Shown one piece after another: positions 12,963-36,032 of a stretch of 36,032 bases of DNA. A program made the translations under genes and the position numbers. Below the pieces are notes generated by a model that saw nothing but the letters and a program-made list of their open reading frames with translations, searched no databases and was not told the DNA's origin. The DNA is from a virus. The stretch is taken from positions 1-36,032 of IMG/VR virus record IMGVR_UViG_3300023184_000308, one strand, 5' to 3'. The stretch's first letter is position 1, and the number at the start of each line of letters is the position of its first letter.

Positions 12963-13301
12963 CTACGCACTAGCGTAAATAAAAGCCTTTGATCCGTCTA
13001 ATAGTGATATTTGACATTTCTCAGACCAGCCAAATGACTTGGCAAATCTTGCAAGTTTGATGTCATCTTCGCGTATCAGCGCGTAGATAGGCTTCCCAAC
13101 CAAATTCTCTATAAGAGCAAAGTCCTTATGACAACCCTTCTTTACCTGTGGTGACCACCGCTTGATGTCGATGTGAAACCACAAAAGATTTTCATAAAAC
13201 TCCAAGTAAAAGATGTAATCCTCTCGGATACATACAGGTACTTTCCCAGCCCTTAATTCTTGACTCAATTCTAAGTCACCGCTTACCCATTGGCACAACA
13301 T
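12963..13301 (-). CDS. conserved small late protein (112 aa), unknown
   Basis: It overlaps the end of the tail-hub gene. The product is a soluble alpha/beta-looking protein ending ISLLDGSKAFIYASA. It sits between tail hub and ejection proteins, so a virion or assembly role is likely. The start is uncertain: the ATG at 13301 has no clear ribosome site, and a TTG about 11 codons further in follows GGTGA. No family is recognised. Confidence 0.55.
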   Translation of the reverse strand: MLCQWVSGDLELSQELRAGKVPVCIREDYIFYLEFYENLLWFHIDIKRWSPQVKKGCHKDFALIENLVGKPIYALIREDDIKLARFAKSFGWSEKCQISLLDGSKAFIYASA

Positions 13302-14757
13302 CAAATCTGTTTACGCCTACACGCCAGTCCTCTGAGACATTTCCTGTGTAGCGAACCTTGACCTGTCTTGCTGCGAATCTCACATCTGTCGGTTGCGATG
13401 CTGTGTATGGTCCATAAGTCGTCTCAGTAGAAGTCGGATACATCCGAGTTTTGAAGGACACAACGACTTCACCCAAGGTCTGCTCGTCAGGTATGACGCG
13501 ACGCACCGACATAATGTTCTCACCAGCGCCAATCTCATAAGGACCAGACTCAGCAAATGGTGTAGAACCGTCGTAAGAGAAACCTACTTCGTGCTCGTAG
13601 ATATATCCATCGGACGAAATCATCAATGGATTGACGAATACACCTCTGTCAGTTCCTGCGGTGCGAGACAAAGAGCCAATAGCCCAATGCCCTTCGCGGT
13701 AGTTATAGACTACATAGGAGTCGTTCTCATTGCTGGCGCTAGAAGGGTAAAACCAGATGATCTCTCCATACTTGCTGTTGTGTACTGCATAGACTTTACT
13801 GGCTTGGTTGTAGTTGATATTCTGGAAGATGTAGTCGCCAACATCTGATACTAAAGGCTTGACATAGCCGTCATATACCCAGAAGCCTGACTTAGACATC
13901 CAGATGGCTGCGGTGTCAATAGCTGCTACGGCTTGCGCTGAGATCACGCCACAACCCGATCCAGCCTTCTCAAAGCTGTAAACATAAGGCAGACCAATGT
14001 ATGTCGCCACATGGACATCTACATCGGTAAACAGCAGATTTATACCCCTGACGCGCTTACCGCACTTGAGAGAGCCGACTGAGTTAATCTCAAAGTCACC
14101 AGCCTGATTGGTAGCCGATGGTGTCCAGACAGTATTGTTTTCCTGATCACACCAAGAAACCTTGCGTGGGTTGCCTGACGCGCCAAGACCAAATACAAAT
14201 CTTTCTGCTGTCGTCATCACGGCTGCACAACTTGTTGGCGCGTTAGTAATCGCCACAGCCTTTGTTGGCGTGGTAAAGCCTAGTTGCCACTCTAAGAGTT
14301 GACCGTCCTTGCTAGAGCACGCAACCAAGTATTCACCCCAAGAATCCATTGTCCAAGTGGTTGCTGGAATGACATCGCCTAAGTCTGGACGCGCTACACC
14401 ATAGTCATAAGAGCCATAGTTACCATATCCATAACCAGTCTTTAGACTTGCGTCTGTTGCGCCAGTCGTAAAGGTTGTAGGGGTAATGTCTTTGAGAGTT
14501 CCCGCCTCATTCATGGCGTAGAGCTTGGATGGCGTACCAGCAGCGATCCAACGAAGATTGGAGTTGTCACGCCAAGTCAGCATTCCACGACTGACACCAG
14601 TCATCTGAGAGGTTGAGCGCTTACGCCACCCACCCCAAGGTCTGAGCGTATTCTCAAACCAACGCACAAGGTTTGAGTCATACCAGCGTCCCGCAGACTG
14701 GTACTCAGTACCGTTACGGTATACGCCAGCAGGGATTTTGAGTGGTACGAGTGCCAT
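13276..14757 (-). CDS. P22 gp10-like tail hub / DNA-stabilisation protein
   Basis: A 493-aa beta-rich protein of the size of P22 gp10, which plugs the portal channel and carries the tail spikes. Recognisable features are an N-terminal YRNGTEYQSAGRWYDSNLVRW segment, repeated aromatic beta strands compatible with a beta-propeller, and VVYNYREGHWAIGS, a segment type seen in gp10-like proteins. It is placed between the tail and ejection proteins, as expected. Assignment is by pattern recognition and context. Confidence 0.65.
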   Translation of the reverse strand: MALVPLKIPAGVYRNGTEYQSAGRWYDSNLVRWFENTLRPWGGWRKRSTSQMTGVSRGMLTWRDNSNLRWIAAGTPSKLYAMNEAGTLKDITPTTFTTGATDASLKTGYGYGNYGSYDYGVARPDLGDVIPATTWTMDSWGEYLVACSSKDGQLLEWQLGFTTPTKAVAITNAPTSCAAVMTTAERFVFGLGASGNPRKVSWCDQENNTVWTPSATNQAGDFEINSVGSLKCGKRVRGINLLFTDVDVHVATYIGLPYVYSFEKAGSGCGVISAQAVAAIDTAAIWMSKSGFWVYDGYVKPLVSDVGDYIFQNINYNQASKVYAVHNSKYGEIIWFYPSSASNENDSYVVYNYREGHWAIGSLSRTAGTDRGVFVNPLMISSDGYIYEHEVGFSYDGSTPFAESGPYEIGAGENIMSVRRVIPDEQTLGEVVVSFKTRMYPTSTETTYGPYTASQPTDVRFAARQVKVRYTGNVSEDWRVGVNRFDVVPMGKR

Positions 14758-17766: not shown

Positions 17767-17927
17767 GCTGGTGTATCCGCAGGTAAAGGCGTGTTGCCTT
17801 CAGCCACCCACTTTAAATAGGCTTGGTAGTCTGTGTTGTCTGGGTCAAAAGGGATTGAATCTTTATCATCATGCAATACACCGCAAGGCTTTTGTTTATC
17901 ATCTAACAATAATTTATATTTAGTCAT
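17763..17927 (-). CDS. small tail-fibre partner / assembly-type protein (54 aa)
   Basis: The frame begins right at the fibre stop (ATGATGA) with GGAG five bases before the second ATG. The product contains DNTDYQAYLKWVAEGNTPLPAD, a conserved ending that I know from small proteins encoded just after tail-fibre genes in many phages, where related proteins help assemble fibres. It ends in an ATGA overlap with the holin-like gene. Confidence 0.65.
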   Translation of the reverse strand: MTKYKLLLDDKQKPCGVLHDDKDSIPFDPDNTDYQAYLKWVAEGNTPLPADTPA

Positions 17928-19369
17928 CATAACTCCGCATTAAATCCAAGATAAACAGTTCCAGTTCCATTTAAGTCTATAAGTCCAGAAGGACTACCAC
18001 TGGTTAAGCCAGTTGTAGTACTGCCTAATCTACATATACTAGTGGATGGTGATGCGTTCACAATAGTAGGAACTGCATTTAAAGTTGCTGTGGATGCTCC
18101 AGGAAGTCTTAAACCATAATCTGATGCAGTTCCAGTTGTTGTTAATGTTGGAGTTGCACGCATTGATACTGGATAATAAAAATAATTAATTGATGCAGTT
18201 GTACTATCACAAAATCCACTAATACCACCGCCACCACCAAAGATAACTTTATTAAAATATCTTTGGCAAAGAGCAAACTCAGTACCATAAGGGCGGTAAT
18301 CAAACGATGTTGCGGTACTGCCTTTTTCTAGTTGTACGCCTGTGATGTAGAAGGTTGCGCCATTTGTTCCGACTACGCTTGTTGCGCCTGTTGGTGCGTA
18401 ATAATTTGATGTAGTCCAAGCACCAGCAGTACCGCTTCCATAGGTTGAGCCAATCCCTAAACTAAAATCCAATTCAATACCATTACCATTAGTTTTTAGC
18501 CAAGTTCCTGATGTTGCACCAGTAATTGTTATAGATTTTTGTTCCCATGTATTTGCAGAAGAAACTGTATAGCTAAATGGGTAATTGTAATTACCAGCAT
18601 CATTTCTTAATGCACCACCAAAAGTACCAGTCAAAGAACTACGCACCCAAAAAGATAAAGTGATAGTTTGTGCATTGGCTGTTCCCCATGCTAAATCAGC
18701 AGTATTAAATCCTTCTATTCTTTGACCAAGCCAAAAATAATCTCCAGATAAAACTGAATAAGCTGATGTTGAAGTTACACCAAGATAATTATTAAATCCT
18801 ACTGGTGGAGTTACAGAACCAGCGTTTTGTTGAACAGTTAATTTTCCAGTTTGACTGTTACTAATTGACCACCTATCAAGTGTATAAGTTCCATTAGGCG
18901 TAACACTAGCCCCCGCATTACGCTGGTCAATCACCATCGCTGAATTTATGAGGCGGTTCTTAAAGCCAAAATTGCTGGATGCATTGAATACATCTGAGCC
19001 GTTAACCTTAGCAGTAATCTCTCCAGTACCTTTTGCGACTAACTTGAAACCTATATTGGTATCGTCGCCAGATGCAGTTAATGTTGGAGCACCACCAGTT
19101 GCAGCATTTGCAAGCGTTACTTCATTGACTGCCGATGTTGTTGCAGTTACCTTTAGCAGCTCATTGCCATTAGTGTCAATGACATCGCCAACAATTTTCA
19201 GCTTCTTACCGCTACCAACATTAAGACCGACCGATGTTCCAGTACCTGCTGCTGCAAAGATTGCATCAACCGAGTCCAGATCGGTATTGATCTTCGTACC
19301 CCATGTATCGGTACTAGCCCCGACTTCTGGCTTAGTTAGTAATAGGTTAGTTGTTGTGGTATCTGCCAT
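17927..19369 (-). CDS. tail fibre / receptor-binding protein (480 aa)
   Basis: The N-terminus (LLLTKPEVGASTDTWGTKIN, then DLDSVDAIF) is the common virion-attachment start of podovirus fibres. A beta-rich stem follows. From about residue 140 there is a carbohydrate-binding-like jelly roll (NRLINSAMVIDQRNAG through ITGVQLEKGSTATSFDYRPYG). The Gly/Thr/Ser-rich C-terminal part is likely the receptor-binding tip. The second half of the gene is AT-richer than the first, consistent with exchange of the host-specific domain. No adjacent template repeat or reverse transcriptase indicates diversity generation. Confidence 0.8.
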   Translation of the reverse strand: MADTTTTNLLLTKPEVGASTDTWGTKINTDLDSVDAIFAAAGTGTSVGLNVGSGKKLKIVGDVIDTNGNELLKVTATTSAVNEVTLANAATGGAPTLTASGDDTNIGFKLVAKGTGEITAKVNGSDVFNASSNFGFKNRLINSAMVIDQRNAGASVTPNGTYTLDRWSISNSQTGKLTVQQNAGSVTPPVGFNNYLGVTSTSAYSVLSGDYFWLGQRIEGFNTADLAWGTANAQTITLSFWVRSSLTGTFGGALRNDAGNYNYPFSYTVSSANTWEQKSITITGATSGTWLKTNGNGIELDFSLGIGSTYGSGTAGAWTTSNYYAPTGATSVVGTNGATFYITGVQLEKGSTATSFDYRPYGTEFALCQRYFNKVIFGGGGGISGFCDSTTASINYFYYPVSMRATPTLTTTGTASDYGLRLPGASTATLNAVPTIVNASPSTSICRLGSTTTGLTSGSPSGLIDLNGTGTVYLGFNAEL

Positions 19370-23537: not shown

Positions 23538-24521
23538 CTATTTCAGTAAAAGTTCTATTGCTTTAGCCGCGTCATCGACGCGACCAGACTTTGCAAGACG
23601 CTGTTTTGCGCGTGTACTTTCAGTTGTTGTAGAGACGCGACCTGCTGCACTAGGCTTGGCAGTGCGAGGACCGTTGTTGACGACTGGCTTGATCTGTCCA
23701 CGCTTGGACATCATCTGGTCATAGAGCGCAGCTTTACGCAACGCAATGACAGCCCTGTGGTCATAAACATTCTTGAGTTCTTCGTCGCTGAATCCGATCT
23801 TTTTACCAAATTCGACGAGTAGAGCTTTTTCAGCCTGTGCCTTCTTGGAATCTTTCCACTCAGGTACGGCTTGGATCAGGGCTTCTTGCTGTTGCGCAAG
23901 GTGAGCTTGCATTTCCTGTGCTCTTTGTTGCGCTGTTAGCTGAGAAAGTCGCTGCTGCTCAGATTGAATAGCTGCGAGTTTTTCTTGCTTCTGGCGTCTA
24001 ATCTCCGACTGCCTCACCCATTCGATAGGGTCTTCATCTCGAAGACGCTCCATGTCGATAGATGGTTCAGCCGACTCAAGTTGCTGTTGCAACGCTCCCA
24101 ACAATTGAGCGTACTGTTCACGCTCGGCACGAATAGCAGCAGCCTCAGCCTCAACAGCCTTGCGGGTCTCAGCGATCTGTTGCGTCTTTCGTGTGTAGTC
24201 CTGAGTACGCGAATATCCTTTTTGAAGTTCGTCTAGCGTTACCTCGACCTCTTTACCGTCAACTTTGACGGTGTAGACCTCGGCTGGCTTTTCTTCTTCT
24301 TCGGTTTCTTCACTTTCCTCTGACTGTTCCTCTGTCGTTTCATCACTCGATTCGTCGTCTTGCACATCGAGTTCTTCGTCAACAGAAGCCGCGACTTCGG
24401 ACTCTTCGTCCTCAGTCAAACGCGCCTTGTCATCTGTCTGCTGTTCTCCATCTAGTGGCAACATCATCTGATCAAGAGCACTAGCTGCATCAGCTACGGA
24501 CATAGGGGTTTGGTTTTCCAT
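23538..24521 (-). CDS. scaffolding protein (327 aa)
   Basis: A very acidic N-terminal quarter (long Glu/Ser/Asp run around 35-80) leads into a short beta-like module (VYTVKVDGKEVEVTLDELQKG). A long Gln/Glu/Ala coiled-coil region at about 105-215 follows, then a basic C-terminus that would bind the capsid shell. Composition and position between portal and capsid genes are those of a scaffold that guides procapsid assembly. It is not expected in the mature virion. Confidence 0.78.
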   Translation of the reverse strand: MENQTPMSVADAASALDQMMLPLDGEQQTDDKARLTEDEESEVAASVDEELDVQDDESSDETTEEQSEESEETEEEEKPAEVYTVKVDGKEVEVTLDELQKGYSRTQDYTRKTQQIAETRKAVEAEAAAIRAEREQYAQLLGALQQQLESAEPSIDMERLRDEDPIEWVRQSEIRRQKQEKLAAIQSEQQRLSQLTAQQRAQEMQAHLAQQQEALIQAVPEWKDSKKAQAEKALLVEFGKKIGFSDEELKNVYDHRAVIALRKAALYDQMMSKRGQIKPVVNNGPRTAKPSAAGRVSTTTESTRAKQRLAKSGRVDDAAKAIELLLK

Positions 24522-24799: not shown

Positions 24800-26992
24800 T
24801 TAAACCATTCCTTGTGGGTTGATGGGTTGCTCTGGTGCTGGCTGGGCTTGCGCCATAGCCTGTTGTACCAAAGCACTTTGCTCTTTTACAACCTCTCGGT
24901 TGACATTCTGCTCCGCAACAATTTGCGCGGTGCTCACCTGTGTGTTGTACTTTAACTCAAGTTCGTACTGACGAAGTAGTCTATCTTGGTTCATTTGATC
25001 GCGTCTGAAATCATCATCTCTGATCATCTTCTGGCGCTGTAACTCAAGATCGGCAGCCTTTTTCTGGATGTCTGCCTTAATAGACTCGGCTTGAACCTGC
25101 GCCAAAACCTCTTCTGGAGTTGGCTTTTGTGGTGCTTGTGGTGGCTTCCAGCCATCTGGAATATCCGCAAAGTAGCTTGATGCGTCCTTAAATCCTGAGA
25201 GTTCAACGACCTTCTTTAAGGTGCGCACATACATCTGAGGAGACACCACGGGATTCTCAAGACCGTACTGGTTGATGATGGATTCTTGCTTGGCGAGTAT
25301 CTGCATCAGGGTTGCAATACGCTCATTGGTGTCGCCATTGCCAAGACCGATATTGATGTTGACATCCATCGTGTTGTCCCAAGCGCGTGGGTCAATCTGT
25401 ACCCACTTGTTGCGCAAGCGGATCATGCGTGGCTTGTCTTGATGCGTCGTGACCAAGAACAAAATCGTTTTAAACAGCTCCTTCATGCCTTCAGCCATAA
25501 GACGCGCAGTCAACTCAATGCGTCCTTGGCTGGCGCTTACTGTGGCTGCCACAGCAGCCTTGGTGCTGGACTGCAAAGCATCTGGATTCAATCCCATAGA
25601 TGCCTTGGACATTCCTGTGCGACCTTCCTTGATCTCGTCCAAGTAAGAAAGCACAGGGAAAGCAGCCTGCCCAACAAACGGTGTCACCAACGGCTGCACC
25701 ATATTTGGAGCACGCGCACGAATGATTGCGCCTGTCTCGTTATTCAAAGCGTCGTCAATGTTGACTTGACCTTCGACAATCACGGTGCGCGGATGGATGG
25801 ATTGCGCCAAAGAATCAAGCGTATTGCGCATGACTTCTGACTTGATCTCCTGCAAGTCTCGCGTAATGTCAAATATCGACATCGCCTCAAGTGGTGATGT
25901 GTGGGGTTCTGGATCGCAAGGAAACTCAATAAACGGGATGTACGACGCTGGCAGATTGCGCACCATCTTGTAACCCGAACCCATAAAGCACATCTTGCGC
26001 AACTCAGGGATACCGTCACCGTCATAGTCAACCTTGGCATAGCCCTCGACATAGAGGACACGCATCATCATGGGGTTATTGCTCTCGCCAAAATACTGGT
26101 TATTAGCAAGAGGAGCGCGAGCCAGAGCCTCTTCGTTGTCGTTCAAGTCTGACGAGCCAATGTAGTCCATCACCTCGTCTTCGTCATAGCCCATGCCAAT
26201 CAACTCAGCCACAGTCGCCATCTTGCGGTGACCAATGAACGGTGCATCTTTGAATGACATCGCTTGACGCGAAAGCAATAACTCTTCTGGCGGTAGGCAC
26301 GCCACATGAATACGCTTGTCAACAATCTTGCGCTTGACTTGCACATCATGGATCATTGCCTGTGGCGCTGGTTGACCAGTCATAGGATCGATCTGCATCG
26401 CGCCTTGCATGGCGTCGTCTGGATAGCTCGCAACGATCTGCACATCTGCGCCATCTTCTTGCATTACGATCTGCAATGTCTGGTCATCGAGTCCAGAATA
26501 TTCTTCAATGCGTACAGACTCGGTGTCTTCAACCCAAGCCTTCATAATTCCACATTTACGCACCAAAGCGTCTTTAAATGTGGCGTATGCCACCATAAAA
26601 CCGTTGTTGTCGTTGTTAAAGATGTAATTTGCGTAGTCTGTGGCTTGCTGTGCGCCAGCAACATCTTCTGGACCACGGGGTACATACTCAACGACATTCT
26701 CTGTTGAGAAAAATACCTTCATCAAAGACGGCAACATGGCAGATACGGTGTCGCGCACTTCCATCGCCACGACTTGTGAGCGACCTTCTTCCTCGTTACC
26801 GAAGGGGTCACCACGGTAATACTCAGTACCGCGAGCGCGAATGGGAGACAAGTCGGAGTCGATGTAGCTCACAGCGTCTGTGATCTCAGCGTCTATCATG
26901 GCTTCCAAGTCTGTATCTGTCATGGGTGTAAGTGTCGGGTCAACTTCTGACGCGATGTCTGTGCTTATACCGATTTCTTTATTTAGGTGCAT
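24800..26992 (-). CDS. portal protein, P22-type size class (730 aa)
   Basis: It forms the dodecameric ring at the packaging vertex. The length is close to P22 gp1. The helical N-terminus includes a stretch rich in Asp/Glu, the wing contains SMLPSLMKVFFSTENVVEYVP, and the stem and tunnel loop lie around residues 380-480. The long Gln-rich helical C-terminus (LELQRQKMIRDDDFRRDQM) fits the barrel of P22-type portals. It sits between terminase and scaffold as expected. AAGGG is seven bases before the ATG. Confidence 0.8.
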   Translation of the reverse strand: MHLNKEIGISTDIASEVDPTLTPMTDTDLEAMIDAEITDAVSYIDSDLSPIRARGTEYYRGDPFGNEEEGRSQVVAMEVRDTVSAMLPSLMKVFFSTENVVEYVPRGPEDVAGAQQATDYANYIFNNDNNGFMVAYATFKDALVRKCGIMKAWVEDTESVRIEEYSGLDDQTLQIVMQEDGADVQIVASYPDDAMQGAMQIDPMTGQPAPQAMIHDVQVKRKIVDKRIHVACLPPEELLLSRQAMSFKDAPFIGHRKMATVAELIGMGYDEDEVMDYIGSSDLNDNEEALARAPLANNQYFGESNNPMMMRVLYVEGYAKVDYDGDGIPELRKMCFMGSGYKMVRNLPASYIPFIEFPCDPEPHTSPLEAMSIFDITRDLQEIKSEVMRNTLDSLAQSIHPRTVIVEGQVNIDDALNNETGAIIRARAPNMVQPLVTPFVGQAAFPVLSYLDEIKEGRTGMSKASMGLNPDALQSSTKAAVAATVSASQGRIELTARLMAEGMKELFKTILFLVTTHQDKPRMIRLRNKWVQIDPRAWDNTMDVNINIGLGNGDTNERIATLMQILAKQESIINQYGLENPVVSPQMYVRTLKKVVELSGFKDASSYFADIPDGWKPPQAPQKPTPEEVLAQVQAESIKADIQKKAADLELQRQKMIRDDDFRRDQMNQDRLLRQYELELKYNTQVSTAQIVAEQNVNREVVKEQSALVQQAMAQAQPAPEQPINPQGMV

Positions 26993-29885: not shown

Positions 29886-31430
29886 TTATGCAACCCTAGA
29901 GAGGTTTCTACGCAACGGCTGAGACCACTTCTGCGATGCGTTTGCACCGAATGCACCGATAGCTGCTTCAGATGCAAATGTCAGCACAAATGAATCTGCC
30001 TTGTCGGGGGACTTCAAGCCACGCTTTCGGATGTCGTCCTTGCCCTCGACTTGAATCTTTCCAGAGCTGCTAAAGAAGTACCTCACAGTCGCAAGTTCTG
30101 CCACAAGTTCTTCGTCTGCGGGGATACGACAATCACGCGCCTCGAACCACGCCTTCGCCTTGTACCAAAGCTCTGCGCGTAGATTCCTGTAAGTCGTACC
30201 CATCGCGGGGGACTCTGAAACATTGATGCCTCGAGCTGGAAGTCCGAGTTCTCGTAGACGATCAACTACGCCAGCACCAAGACCAATCGAGTCCACCATA
30301 ATCTCGTGGGGACGCTGACTAGGTGGTAGAGCTTCCCACTCTGCGACGACAGCGCCAGTCAATTGCATCAAGTCCAAGTTTTTCCAAATCTTTGTGGGTT
30401 CGATGAGCGCGTTGCCTTGTCTCTTCGAGAGTGCAGACCTGTCACCACCAAAGCGTGCGACATCCAAGCCCCAGATCAGCTTGGCGTGCTGACTTGTCTC
30501 TACATCGCGGTGCTTTGCCAGTTCCAGCAACTCCATCGGGATGATCGTGTCGTCGTCTGCCCTTGGAAACTCGCCAAGGACGCGGATACGGTAGGCATTG
30601 GATTCCTCACCGTAGCGCGACTTCATCTCTTCGACATACGCATCTGAGACCCTTGGAGAGTCAACGCAAGAGACTTTCATCGTCACCCAGTCGTTGGCGA
30701 GTCGGTTCTGGGTGTCGTAAAAGAATCCGCTAGAGCGTACAGGGTTGCCCAGTAGAAGGGTCACGGCATTGTGTCCAGACATCGAACCAGCAGCAGCTTC
30801 AAACACTTGCTCTGGGATACCCGACGCCTCGTCAGCCACCAGCATCACATTCTCTGAGTGGACACCTTGCAGGGCTTCTGGTTGCTCTGCCCTCGATGTC
30901 CTTGCGGACACGAAAGCCTCTGTCGCTGCTTCCTTGACCTCGATACGGTCTTGCTTGACTTCGAGCATCTCTCTAAGAGTCTCAGGTAACTCTTTGACCC
31001 AACGCTTTAGTTCCGCAAAGAGCGCGTCGTATAGCTGGCTGGATGTGGGGGCTGTTACCACCACCTTGACGGGGTAACGCAAGAGCAGATACCAGATGAT
31101 CGCCCAGCTCGCTGCTGTGGACTTGCCTACGCCATGACCTGATCTGACAGATATGCGTCGGTTTCCCTTGGCGATGTGGGTGAGGAAAGTCTCTTGCCAA
31201 GTGTCGGGGTTAGCGTTTAAGACTTCCTTGACAAAGAGGACTGGATTGTTCTTGTAGCGTATGGTGAACGCAACAAAGGGATTCTTTGAGAGTTCGTCTT
31301 GCTTCTTGTCGTGGATGCGGTCTAGCGTCTCCTTGACCTGTGGGTGTAGTTTCTTTTTTACTGGTGCAGTTGATTCTGTCGTCATGTCGGGATTGTGCCA
31401 CCAAGATGGGTTGTTGGTGACTCCGTTCAT
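29886..31430 (-). CDS. terL: terminase large subunit (514 aa)
   Basis: The DNA-packaging motor and nuclease. The ATPase half shows Walker A SGHGVGKST (97-105), Walker B VMLVADEAS (195-203, Asp200/Glu201) and the coupling segment LLLGNP. The RNase H-like nuclease half shows GLDVARFGGD (Asp323), IMVDSIGLGAG (Asp380) and SPDKADSFVL (Asp476/Asp479). The first ATG at 31430 has no close SD. An ATG 15 codons in (31385) is the alternative start. Unusually, it is separated from the small subunit gene by 476 non-coding bases. Confidence 0.92.
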   Translation of the reverse strand: MNGVTNNPSWWHNPDMTTESTAPVKKKLHPQVKETLDRIHDKKQDELSKNPFVAFTIRYKNNPVLFVKEVLNANPDTWQETFLTHIAKGNRRISVRSGHGVGKSTAASWAIIWYLLLRYPVKVVVTAPTSSQLYDALFAELKRWVKELPETLREMLEVKQDRIEVKEAATEAFVSARTSRAEQPEALQGVHSENVMLVADEASGIPEQVFEAAAGSMSGHNAVTLLLGNPVRSSGFFYDTQNRLANDWVTMKVSCVDSPRVSDAYVEEMKSRYGEESNAYRIRVLGEFPRADDDTIIPMELLELAKHRDVETSQHAKLIWGLDVARFGGDRSALSKRQGNALIEPTKIWKNLDLMQLTGAVVAEWEALPPSQRPHEIMVDSIGLGAGVVDRLRELGLPARGINVSESPAMGTTYRNLRAELWYKAKAWFEARDCRIPADEELVAELATVRYFFSSSGKIQVEGKDDIRKRGLKSPDKADSFVLTFASEAAIGAFGANASQKWSQPLRRNLSRVA

Positions 31431-33246: not shown

Positions 33247-35298
33247 TCATTTCTTCACCAAAGCGACGACAGAATTGACCTGTTTTGCGTCCTCTTTTTC
33301 CTCAAACACAGCCCAGCACATATCATCATAAATTACTACTTTTTCCATTTCCACCAAGTCCAACTTGACCCGTTGCCAAGCCTTTTTTAGCGTATCTGGC
33401 GACACATCGCTACCGATTCGAGCCTTAAATTCAGACCTCCATTGCTCAATCTTTATGCACTTATTGCGCATTCCGTTGATGGTTTGCATCTCCCCAAACT
33501 TGGCAATTGCTTCATGAAGCGAGTTCAAAGCGAGCTTCTGGTTCGTCCCTTTGCCCTTCTTTTCTGGTGGTTTCATGGACTCTTTTCTGTCGTTTATGGC
33601 TTGATCGTCAGACTCCACCGCCAGACTGGAAGTGCCAGACTCAAAGTCCACTACACCACCAGAAGTGGTGCTTACCTCGACCATCTTGAACCCGATGCGC
33701 TGCCCGTCTTCCCCGTCCTTTTGTTTGCTTATGTGGAGGATTCCTTTTGGCGGTTGAGCGCCTTCGATCCTGATAATCTCCAGCTCTGTGTCTACTGCTC
33801 CGAGCAGGGAAGAGTGACCGCGCAGACCTTTGGTTGCGTCCTTACCAGCGTGGTGAACTACTAGCAAGCCACACTCATACCGTCCTTGTATAGCGCCAGC
33901 AGCAGTAATGAATGCACCCATGTCTTCACTTGCGTTCTCGTTACCACCGCCAAACGCTCTAGCCAAGGTGTCAATGATGATCAGCTCGAAGTTGATCTCG
34001 TTGATTGCCTTCAAGTCATCTATTGCGTTAACTAAGTCTTGCAGGTCTGTCTTACTTGATCTGAGATTGACCTGCCGTCTTAGGAAATAGACTGGCGCTC
34101 CAACTGGCGTGCTGTGATGCGTCTTCAGCGCCTTGATCCTTGACCCGATACCGCCATGACCCTCACCAGCGATGTATAGGACTGCACCTTGCTTCGTGAT
34201 CTGGTTGCCGAGGAATGCTCTGCCTGTGGCGATGCACTCTGCAATGTCCAAGGCAATGAATGACTTAAAACTGGCTGGAGGTGCGTATAAAGCAACGAAT
34301 GATCGTTGCGGTATGACTCCTTGCACTAACCACTCGACAGGTTCGTCCTCGATGCTGTCCCACGCTTCGAGCTTGAATCCTTCGCGTTGTAGTGGTACTT
34401 GTGGCAACTCCAACTCTTCCATTACTGGTGTCTCAGCAACGCCAATCAATCTTGCAGGAGTCGTTACATCTGACTCACTTTGTATTGCTTGCGTGGCTTT
34501 TGTCAGGTCAACCAGCCTGTCCTTGTCACCGCCATACTTGTGGACAAACTCGTATGCGTCCTCCTTGATCTCTTGTAACCCAAGGTCTATTACTCGGATA
34601 CTTTTTGTAACCGACTTGAGAGCTGCGACTGCCTTCCTTGCGTACTCCCAGCCCACCGTGTCGTTGTCAGGGACTATGGCGATGGTGAGTCCTACTAAGT
34701 GCTTGACCACATCTTCTGGGAAGCTGCTTGCACCGTTGTGCGTACAGGTTGCCACCACACCGATAGTCTTTAAAGCGTCTGCTGCCTTCTCGCCTTCGCA
34801 CAAGAAGACTGTGCGTCCTGTCTTTCTTGCAAAGTCCACCTCTGGTAAGTTGTAGGGGACGATGTTCGCACCAGTCATGGATGCGTGTCTGCGTCCCTGC
34901 TCGTCCACTCTGAACTGCTTATAGGTCTTTCCCTTGGCGTCGAAGGTCTTGTATCTCTGCTTGATGTGCTGGGTGACGCCATCCTCATCGGTGTAGTGCC
35001 ATTCCTGCTCGAGCACAGGGTCTTGCTTTTGTATTGGCTTGAGTTGCGTTAAGAAGTCTGTTGGATTGGGTAAGTCTGGCAGCAACCCAAAGTCCCTGAC
35101 TGCTTGGAATACCGAGTCTTGAGAGCACCCACCGTAGCACTTGAATAACGGTTTGCCTTCGTCGTTCTCTGTGACGCATAGAGATGGATTCCTGTCCCCG
35201 TTACCCTGCCCGTGTGAGCTCACAGGACAGCTCGCCATCCATTGCCCGTTCACCTTCTTTGCGTTGCCAAGCGCTTGCGCTATTTGTTCGGCTTGCAT
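33247..35298 (-). CDS. primase-helicase fusion (683 aa)
   Basis: The main replication enzyme. The N-terminal zinc-binding part has C24, H29, C54 and C58 (CPVSSH and CYGGC). The TOPRIM primase core has FLCEGEKAADAL (165-176) and VPDNDT (209-214). The RepA/RecA-like helicase domain has Walker A YAPPASFKSF (338-347), Walker B LIIIDTLAR (439-447), VHHAGKD (481-487) and GLRGHSSL (491-498). The C-terminal 120 residues are an additional winged-helix-like region. The start has only a weak purine-rich ribosome site. It would unwind and prime the phage DNA. Confidence 0.85.
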   Translation of the reverse strand: MQAEQIAQALGNAKKVNGQWMASCPVSSHGQGNGDRNPSLCVTENDEGKPLFKCYGGCSQDSVFQAVRDFGLLPDLPNPTDFLTQLKPIQKQDPVLEQEWHYTDEDGVTQHIKQRYKTFDAKGKTYKQFRVDEQGRRHASMTGANIVPYNLPEVDFARKTGRTVFLCEGEKAADALKTIGVVATCTHNGASSFPEDVVKHLVGLTIAIVPDNDTVGWEYARKAVAALKSVTKSIRVIDLGLQEIKEDAYEFVHKYGGDKDRLVDLTKATQAIQSESDVTTPARLIGVAETPVMEELELPQVPLQREGFKLEAWDSIEDEPVEWLVQGVIPQRSFVALYAPPASFKSFIALDIAECIATGRAFLGNQITKQGAVLYIAGEGHGGIGSRIKALKTHHSTPVGAPVYFLRRQVNLRSSKTDLQDLVNAIDDLKAINEINFELIIIDTLARAFGGGNENASEDMGAFITAAGAIQGRYECGLLVVHHAGKDATKGLRGHSSLLGAVDTELEIIRIEGAQPPKGILHISKQKDGEDGQRIGFKMVEVSTTSGGVVDFESGTSSLAVESDDQAINDRKESMKPPEKKGKGTNQKLALNSLHEAIAKFGEMQTINGMRNKCIKIEQWRSEFKARIGSDVSPDTLKKAWQRVKLDLVEMEKVVIYDDMCWAVFEEKEDAKQVNSVVALVKK

Positions 35299-35315: not shown

Positions 35316-36032
35316 TTATTTTGTTAGTAATTGCCATGCTGCCGCTGCCACTCTTGGAACTTGTCCATTTCCAACGGCTGCAATTCTGTCCAACCCATTA
35401 ACCATCCCATCACTACTTCTCCACATGATGGGTCTGGTATTGTCTTTCTGTCCTCTAACCCGCCAAGATGGAGATGCTCTTTCGTCATCTCCCACCACAA
35501 AGTCGATCCAACCTTGACACCGCTCTTGCGTAGTCCACCGTTGAAATACTTTGCCTTTGCGCTCGACCAATGATTGAAAAGGTTTTTTGGAGGAGTCGGC
35601 AACAATCCAGATTCTTTCCCTTCGATGTTGCCCACCGAAGTCGTCGTGTCCCAGCACTCCCCATTGCGCATCAAACCCCATCTGGGCAAGATCACACAAC
35701 ACTCTGTCGAGTCCTCGAAGAGTGAGTGCTGGTGAGTTCTCAATGAATGCGTATCTTGGCTGTACTTCGCGAATGACCCGTGACATTTCTCCCCAGAGTC
35801 CTGATCGTTCCCCATCGAGTCCTGCGCCTCTTCCTGCAACGCTGATGTCCTGACAGGGAAATCCACCGCTGACGACTTGGACCTTTCCCCGCCAAGGTTT
35901 GCCGTCGAATGTGGTGATGTCGTCCCAGATAGGGAATCTAGGTAAGAGTCCGTCAGCTTGCCGTTGCAATAAAACTCTGCGTGGGTAATCTTCGATTTCA
36001 ACGGCACACACGGTACGCCACCCCAACAAATG
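35316..36032 (-). CDS. C5-cytosine DNA methyltransferase, 5' end cut by window
   Basis: Visible motifs, numbered from a TTG at 36029, are GGFPCQDIS with catalytic Cys59, FIENSPAL (motif VI-like, Glu97), GGQHRRERIWIVA (motif VIII), and GNGQVPRVAAAAW near the end (motif X). The SAM-binding motif I lies beyond the window, so the gene is partial. The target-recognition region between motifs VIII and X is short, about 70 residues. The enzyme would methylate cytosine in phage DNA, for instance against host restriction. A second open frame covers the whole gene. Confidence 0.85.
   Translation of the reverse strand, partial: HLLGWRTVCAVEIEDYPRRVLLQRQADGLLPRFPIWDDITTFDGKPWRGKVQVVSGGFPCQDISVAGRGAGLDGERSGLWGEMSRVIREVQPRYAFIENSPALTLRGLDRVLCDLAQMGFDAQWGVLGHDDFGGQHRRERIWIVADSSKKPFQSLVERKGKVFQRWTTQERCQGWIDFVVGDDERASPSWRVRGQKDNTRPIMWRSSDGMVNGLDRIAAVGNGQVPRVAAAAWQLLTK
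35324..36032 (-). CDS. overlapping frame-shifted protein within the methyltransferase gene (at least 227 aa)
   Basis: Shifted by one base from the methyltransferase frame on the same strand, this frame is open from the window edge to 35324. Counting from a GTG at 36007, it carries FAKY (79-82), LPRWGLMRNGECW (107-119), GLLPTP (134-139) and WLMGWTELQPLEMDKF (202-217). I recognise this ordered set, including DFPVRTS near 49-55, from a phage protein type often found near C5 methyltransferase genes. Its presence inside the methyltransferase gene suggests overprinting. A start codon within the window (GTG 36007) has no obvious SD, so translation may begin upstream. Confidence 0.5.
   Translation of the reverse strand, partial: ICWGGVPCVPLKSKITHAEFYCNGKLTDSYLDSLSGTTSPHSTANLGGERSKSSAVDFPVRTSALQEEAQDSMGNDQDSGEKCHGSFAKYSQDTHSLRTHQHSLFEDSTECCVILPRWGLMRNGECWDTTTSVGNIEGKESGLLPTPPKNLFNHWSSAKAKYFNGGLRKSGVKVGSTLWWEMTKEHLHLGGLEDRKTIPDPSCGEVVMGWLMGWTELQPLEMDKFQEWQRQHGNY

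Follow-up and report, generated by a model that had tools for sequence, protein, structure and literature searches.

The DNA analysed here, called the window below, is the whole 36,032-nt stretch of the IMG/VR virus record IMGVR_UViG_3300023184_000308. Because it carries genes for virion structural, tail fibre, scaffolding, portal and terminase proteins (13276-14757, 17927-19369, 23538-24521, 24800-26992 and 29886-31430 (-)), we assign it to a tailed phage. At its end, two long reading frames occupy the same minus-strand DNA. The methyltransferase frame (alpha, 35316-36032) is open for 238 codons down to a stop at 35316-35318 and encodes a C5-cytosine methyltransferase with motifs I-VIII and X (PF00145, E 1.2e-22; phrog_363, 7.9e-54). 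The +1 frame (beta, 35324-36031) is open for 235 codons down to a stop at 35324-35326 and matches phrog_1008 (2.3e-10) as well as phrog_35493 and phrog_26627. Both ORFs are truncated, their 5' ends lying beyond the window edge, so that motif I of alpha is partly past the window end; full-length beta has 251 aa in the related locus L115. Over 35316-36032 the third minus-strand frame contains 11 stops and the plus-strand frames contain 8, 5 and 12. The downstream neighbour (33247-35298, minus strand) encodes a primase/helicase-like AAA_25 protein and served as our control gene.

In C5-methyltransferases motifs I-X follow one another in order, and the target recognition domain (TRD) lies between VIII and IX. 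The alpha profile matches M.HhaI across motifs I-VIII, and the catalytic and SAM-binding motifs I-VIII of PF00145 are present in the alpha of the window. Motif IV (GFPCQ, 35850-35864) reads DFPVRTS in the +1 frame, and motif X (GNGQVP, 35355-35372, placed by sequence and alignment) reads LEMDKFQ. In beta we recognize a constrained block (block 1, SFAKY...LPRWGLMRNGECWD, 35648-35776) above motifs V-VIII of alpha, a degenerate TL-like (target recognition) element, LPTPP (35588-35602), which takes the strict form P[STCA]PT in many relatives, and a motif IX-like segment, PDPSCGEVVMGWLMGWTEL (35381-35437), with the consensus LNPxWVEWLMGWPxGWTDL. All the motifs that an earlier note had quoted for the methyltransferase and for the +1 frame are present.

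The start region missing from the window was read from the near-identical contigs L001, L002 and L007: ATGAATGAGTTGG. In these contigs alpha runs from the first ATG (MNEL...) and beta from an ATG 4 nt later (MSW...), and a run of G12-G15 lies in motif I, just downstream of both starts. Of 161 distinct contexts, 159 have ATG or GTG as the beta start triplet, which lies 4 nt inside the alpha frame. It is formed by an Asn codon, which is AAT in 155 of these contexts and AAC in none, compared with a usage of 128 AAT to 95 AAC in the window. No ATG, GTG or TTG is available to alpha at the usual position in 24 of the 161 contexts; in two of them that were read by hand (L016 and L032) the alpha ATG is found further upstream and the beta ATG is retained. 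As judged from these start sites, beta is predicted to initiate independently of alpha. Co-expression by frameshifting, which the earlier note had put forward, is not the best account of how the +1 frame is expressed, since this frame possesses a conserved start codon of its own.

The window methyltransferase was recoded synonymously 20,000 times, with codons drawn according to their usage in nine other genes of the window; the recoded versions had a mean of 8.1 stops in the +1 frame and none was stop-free. The outcome was alike for 24 relatives, except for three more distant ones from Bacteroides and Stenotrophomonas phages (L082-L084), in which the +1 frame does contain stops. As the first relatives had been fetched with the +1 protein, a second search was carried out by methyltransferase alignment to guard against retrieval bias. 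All 79 full viral genes obtained in this way have no stop in the +1 frame from the start to motif X, and their +2 frame contains a mean of 16.9 stops (minimum 8); homologues that keep the methyltransferase and break the +1 frame, which would have told against the earlier note, therefore numbered 0 of 79.

Divergence at the fourfold-degenerate sites of alpha, taken over 3163 pairs at 50-65% identity that are not independent of one another, is 0.46-0.62 in codons 1-108, falls to 0.29-0.40 in codons 109-144 (block 1, against ~0.6 upstream), goes back up to 0.67 in codons 145-156 and falls again to 0.09 and 0.23 in codons 217-240, the value over the motif IX-like segment being 0.09. The neighbouring primase gene gave 0.67 at 50-60% identity and 0.54 at 60-70%, and the fourfold sites of alpha codons 1-108 are barely more constrained than those of this control. 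Because divergence drops only there, the constraint on beta is confined to SFAKY...GECW and EWLMGWPxGWTDLKPLEMDKF, and its first hundred residues need only stay open. The synonymous constraint that the earlier note had proposed to look for is thus found across homologues, as a collapse to 0.09-0.40 over the conserved blocks of beta. The two-frame arrangement is real and far from chance, and both frames are under selection; the claims that both are open across 35316-36032 and that a second, conserved protein family occupies the +1 frame of a C5-methyltransferase gene are confirmed, the former by the 11 stops of the third frame and the recoding result.

Alpha does not hold motifs I-X in one chain. 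It has motifs I-VIII and X, but between VIII and X it is without the IX segment present there in single-chain relatives (L316, L318, L319, L321 and L322); this segment is found in the +1 frame instead. The C-terminal end of beta (LNPxWVEWLMGWPxGW) has the spacing of canonical motif IX (LTPREAARIQTFPDNF in L214), and in a direct profile comparison (hhalign) with canonical methyltransferases beta falls exactly on motif IX, with a P of 0.18 that is not significant. In the same five single-chain enzymes, which are of the type found in phage Bibwit, a single frame holds I-VIII, PTPT repeats, PRLNAAFAEWMMMLPAGH and motif X. In hhalign the beta C-terminus matches their IX segment with P 6e-10 (probability 96.6), and their IX segment plus X aligns in register with canonical IX-X (P 6e-5). 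By way of these intermediate single-chain fusions, which the link needs, the C-terminal part of beta is predicted to be the motif IX segment missing from alpha. A +1 family unrelated to the methyltransferase was rejected on the same grounds.

The AlphaFold2 model of the single chain L316 has a pTM of 0.67 and, in its IX-X part, pLDDT values that mostly exceed 90; it superposes over its full length on M.HhaI, with 256 residues aligned at Z 23.3 and rmsd 3.5. The model of beta alone has a pLDDT of 54, with residues 1-100 disordered, short strands at 105-144 and a helical end, which broadly fits the divergence pattern; this low-confidence model gave no fold match in Foldseek. Profile searches of PDB chains returned only one insignificant match for beta and no known homologue of block 1 (SFAKY...GECW). 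In some variants (L066-L069, L108 and L114) beta holds IX and then X, and alpha ends after VIII. The actinophages Upyo, Abidatro and Sebastisaurus encode the enzyme as two ORFs, I-VIII and TRD-IX-X; their neighbouring 'DNA methylase' genes (L231, L232 and L234) are halves of one enzyme, and in L231 and L232 the frame of the second half is open upstream across the end of the first (SGMTR.G...).

The TL-type motif P[STCA]PT, as defined in PMC2413257, is present in 37 of 98 beta sequences compared with 1.4 expected, and in 0 of 89 alpha sequences. Several PTPT-like repeats precede motif IX in the beta ORFs of L067, L114, L190 and L199, and recall multi-specific methyltransferases with several target recognition units. 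In Gordonia phage Bibwit (L233, 2117-3826), as also in L315 and L317, a single-chain methyltransferase is annotated as two joined pieces with a LAGLIDADG endonuclease ORF sitting between them, either in an intron or in an intein.

Carriers of the arrangement comprise viral contigs, prophages and four E. coli genomes, the prophages being those of Acinetobacter, Thiobacillus, Halomonas relatives, Pseudomonas, Citrobacter, Kluyvera, Lelliottia, Desulfuromonadales and a spirochaete MAG. The same plan is found in more distant phages: E. coli K1ind2, Paenibacillus Diva, Salmonella SW3, Mycobacterium Zerg and Rhynn, Microbacterium R1, Erwinia and Komagataeibacter. The earlier note had described the +1 family as ordinary annotated phage proteins, and such entries do exist. 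Both CDSs are annotated in K1ind2 ('C-specific methylase' and 'Mte8-like'), and the beta CDS of Diva is named 'g49 internal gene'; like the 'Mte8-like' CDS, it is nested in a methyltransferase. Pseudomonas phage phPA-G has an annotated CDS ('hypothetical protein') in the beta frame and none for alpha. In PHROGs the two frames match phrog_363 (alpha) and phrog_1008 (beta), which are entered as separate families, both as DNA methyltransferase, and among the matches obtained their overlap is unrecorded. Two short families of 'unknown function' (~70 aa), phrog_26627 and phrog_35493, match the beta C-terminus and are likely to be beta fragments called as genes of their own.

All 15 phrog_1008 loci from bacterial genomes, which came from two genome searches and of which a few share a genome or contig, are nested in an alpha methyltransferase ORF, and none of the 15 is a free-standing beta. 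Because of this, the apparently 'independent' members of phrog_1008 are a matter of gene-caller choice. The earlier note was right that a second protein family exists; its proposal that this family later separated from the methyltransferase genes is not borne out. In L151 (2497-3240) alpha is broken by a single stop at 2818-2820 and beta is intact. A literature search, mostly of open-access papers, did not find the overlap described as a phage-wide family, and an earlier description is possible.

Runs of at least 9 G or C occur 36 times inside the gene and 0 times in 478 kb of flanks among 112 distinct viral loci. They occupy three places, at motif I and behind motifs IV and VIII, with tracts at about nt 23 of the ORF in L001-L004 and L007, at about nt 249 in L016, L017 and L023, and at about nt 490 in L033, L035, L043, L045-L047, L049, L051, L062, L063 and L078; most loci are tract-free. 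Several pairs have 0 substitutions in ~320 nt and differ only in tract length (L017/L023, G15/G14; L003/L004, G11/G10; L045/L046, C12/C13; L035/L051, C10/C11), although single-base differences of this kind may be errors in metagenome assemblies. The frames track tract length modulo three. With C12, alpha contains I-VIII and X and beta ends in IX; with C11, I-VIII is joined to IX; and with C10 and C13 the N-terminal part of beta is joined to X. At the motif I tract, the reading frame from the alpha start passes into that of beta with G11, and the one from the beta start into that of alpha with G10. As in phase-variable genes, a coding homopolymer thus differs in length between close relatives and shifts the frame.

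Because the tracts are restricted to the methyltransferase gene and the frames agree with their length, we consider them real and probably phase-variable; a change in tract length would rearrange the frames and in this way switch the enzyme on or off. At 36032 in the window, and at the starts of L005 and L006, the sequence breaks off no more than some tens of bases from where the motif I poly-G tract is expected, a pattern that would fit assemblies broken by tract-length mixtures. It is possible, if somewhat doubtful, that such two-frame enzymes form a class widespread among phages, with both methyltransferase subunits encoded by nearly the same DNA and with hypermutable G/C tracts, at fixed positions within it, that shuffle which motif block joins which. 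If so, slippage would, besides switching the enzyme on or off, produce alpha alone, beta alone or rejoined chains (such as I-VIII fused to IX), and would let phages diversify their DNA modification against host restriction.

Taken together, these data make it highly probable that the locus encodes a split C5-cytosine DNA methyltransferase, whose alpha and beta subunits are specified by near-completely overlapping genes. Alpha would provide the catalytic and SAM-binding domain (I-VIII) and motif X, and beta, started a few nucleotides inside alpha, a tolerant and probably disordered N-terminal part of ~100 residues, the conserved block, the TL-like region and motif IX. Two closely spaced start codons on a single messenger would give rise to both polypeptides. 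We infer the formation of a heterodimer, its activity, a target site and a role in protecting phage DNA: alpha and beta would assemble into one active enzyme, which would shield the phage DNA from restriction. Such a locus may have evolved from a single-chain enzyme through two frameshifts, the first after VIII, which divided the chain, and the second between IX and X, which restored X to alpha; the beta N-terminal half and the stretch of alpha from VIII to X would then be the parts overprinted de novo.

In M.EcoHK31I the beta gene is nested in the alpha gene in a different frame, its start lies well downstream of that of alpha, and the main target-recognition part has been placed in the large subunit. 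In the phage locus, in contrast, beta starts 4 nt inside alpha and spans nearly all of it; moreover, the phage family is an orphan of phages and prophages, has tracts, and includes beta variants that may carry X. With respect to motifs, the large subunit of M.EcoHK31I contains I-VIII and X and the small subunit only IX, and M.AquI is split as I-VIII / IX-X (PMC3404938). The likeness of our locus to M.EcoHK31I (and M.EaeI) comes from this layout: alpha likewise has I-VIII and X; IX lies on a separate, smaller polypeptide, as indicated by the single-chain link, the direct comparison not being significant; and at the window locus the second subunit is encoded inside the first gene in another frame. 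The M.AquI division is the same as that of L066-L069, L108 and L114 and of the actinophages L231, L232 and L234. It leaves no X in alpha, and the phage beta frame, unlike M.AquI, runs upstream through the alpha gene. The single-chain phage enzymes with PTPT repeats (Bibwit type; L233 and L315-L322) share the catalytic half, the PTPT region, IX and X with the two-frame locus but have one frame and one chain. The near-complete overlap, the wide spread in phages and prophages, the beta variants with X and the gene-confined G/C tracts go beyond the M.EcoHK31I precedent.

Several other explanations have to be considered. Beta could be a de novo overprinted protein with a function of its own, like a regulator, an inhibitor or an anti-restriction factor, with an accidental likeness to motif IX, and both the homologue-free block 1 over motifs V-VIII and the missing fold match of beta alone would fit this; we regard it as unlikely, however, as the beta C-terminus is linked to the single-chain IX segment at P 6e-10, alpha is without IX, several variants have X in beta too, and free-standing beta was not found among the 15 bacterial-genome loci. 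A beta frame made only as a continuation of alpha, through programmed frameshifting or transcriptional slippage to a full-length single chain, seems quite improbable to us. It would agree with the slippage-capable tracts in a minority of loci, the fused ORFs in L023, L043, L075 and L076 and the consecutive +1-shifted ORFs for I-VIII and TRD-IX-X in actinophages, but not with an independent beta start conserved in 159 of 161 contexts, a +1 frame open throughout from that start, the absence of tracts from most loci or a constrained beta block above motifs V-VIII.

There is next to no chance that the open +1 frame is a by-product of methyltransferase conservation or of composition. The fourfold sites of codons 1-108, hardly below the control gene, are what it would predict, and it is contradicted by the recoding tests, the 79 of 79 open frames, the start conservation and the local collapse of synonymous divergence; its codon-bias version is ruled out by the recoding and synonymous-site tests. 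Homopolymer lengths are error-prone in metagenome contigs, yet a normal single-frame methyltransferase split by sequencing or assembly error is scarcely believable when the identical arrangement is present in tract-free isolate phages, prophages and E. coli chromosomes.

Outside eukaryotic viruses, only a few long overlaps between genes on the same strand are known, and these are debated. The overlapping genes for a split methyltransferase described in this work offer one that is common in phages and prophages and can be tested in hundreds of genomes, although the records examined mostly annotate just one of the two frames. Because alpha alone is predicted to be inactive, the way in which phage 'orphan' cytosine methyltransferases are cloned and tested would have to change. 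The family also represents a natural series of partitions of one enzyme (a single chain, I-VIII / IX-X, and I-VIII+X / IX) and would illustrate a route to gene overlap through frameshifts within an existing protein. Finally, the tracts point to a phage phase-variation system for DNA modification.
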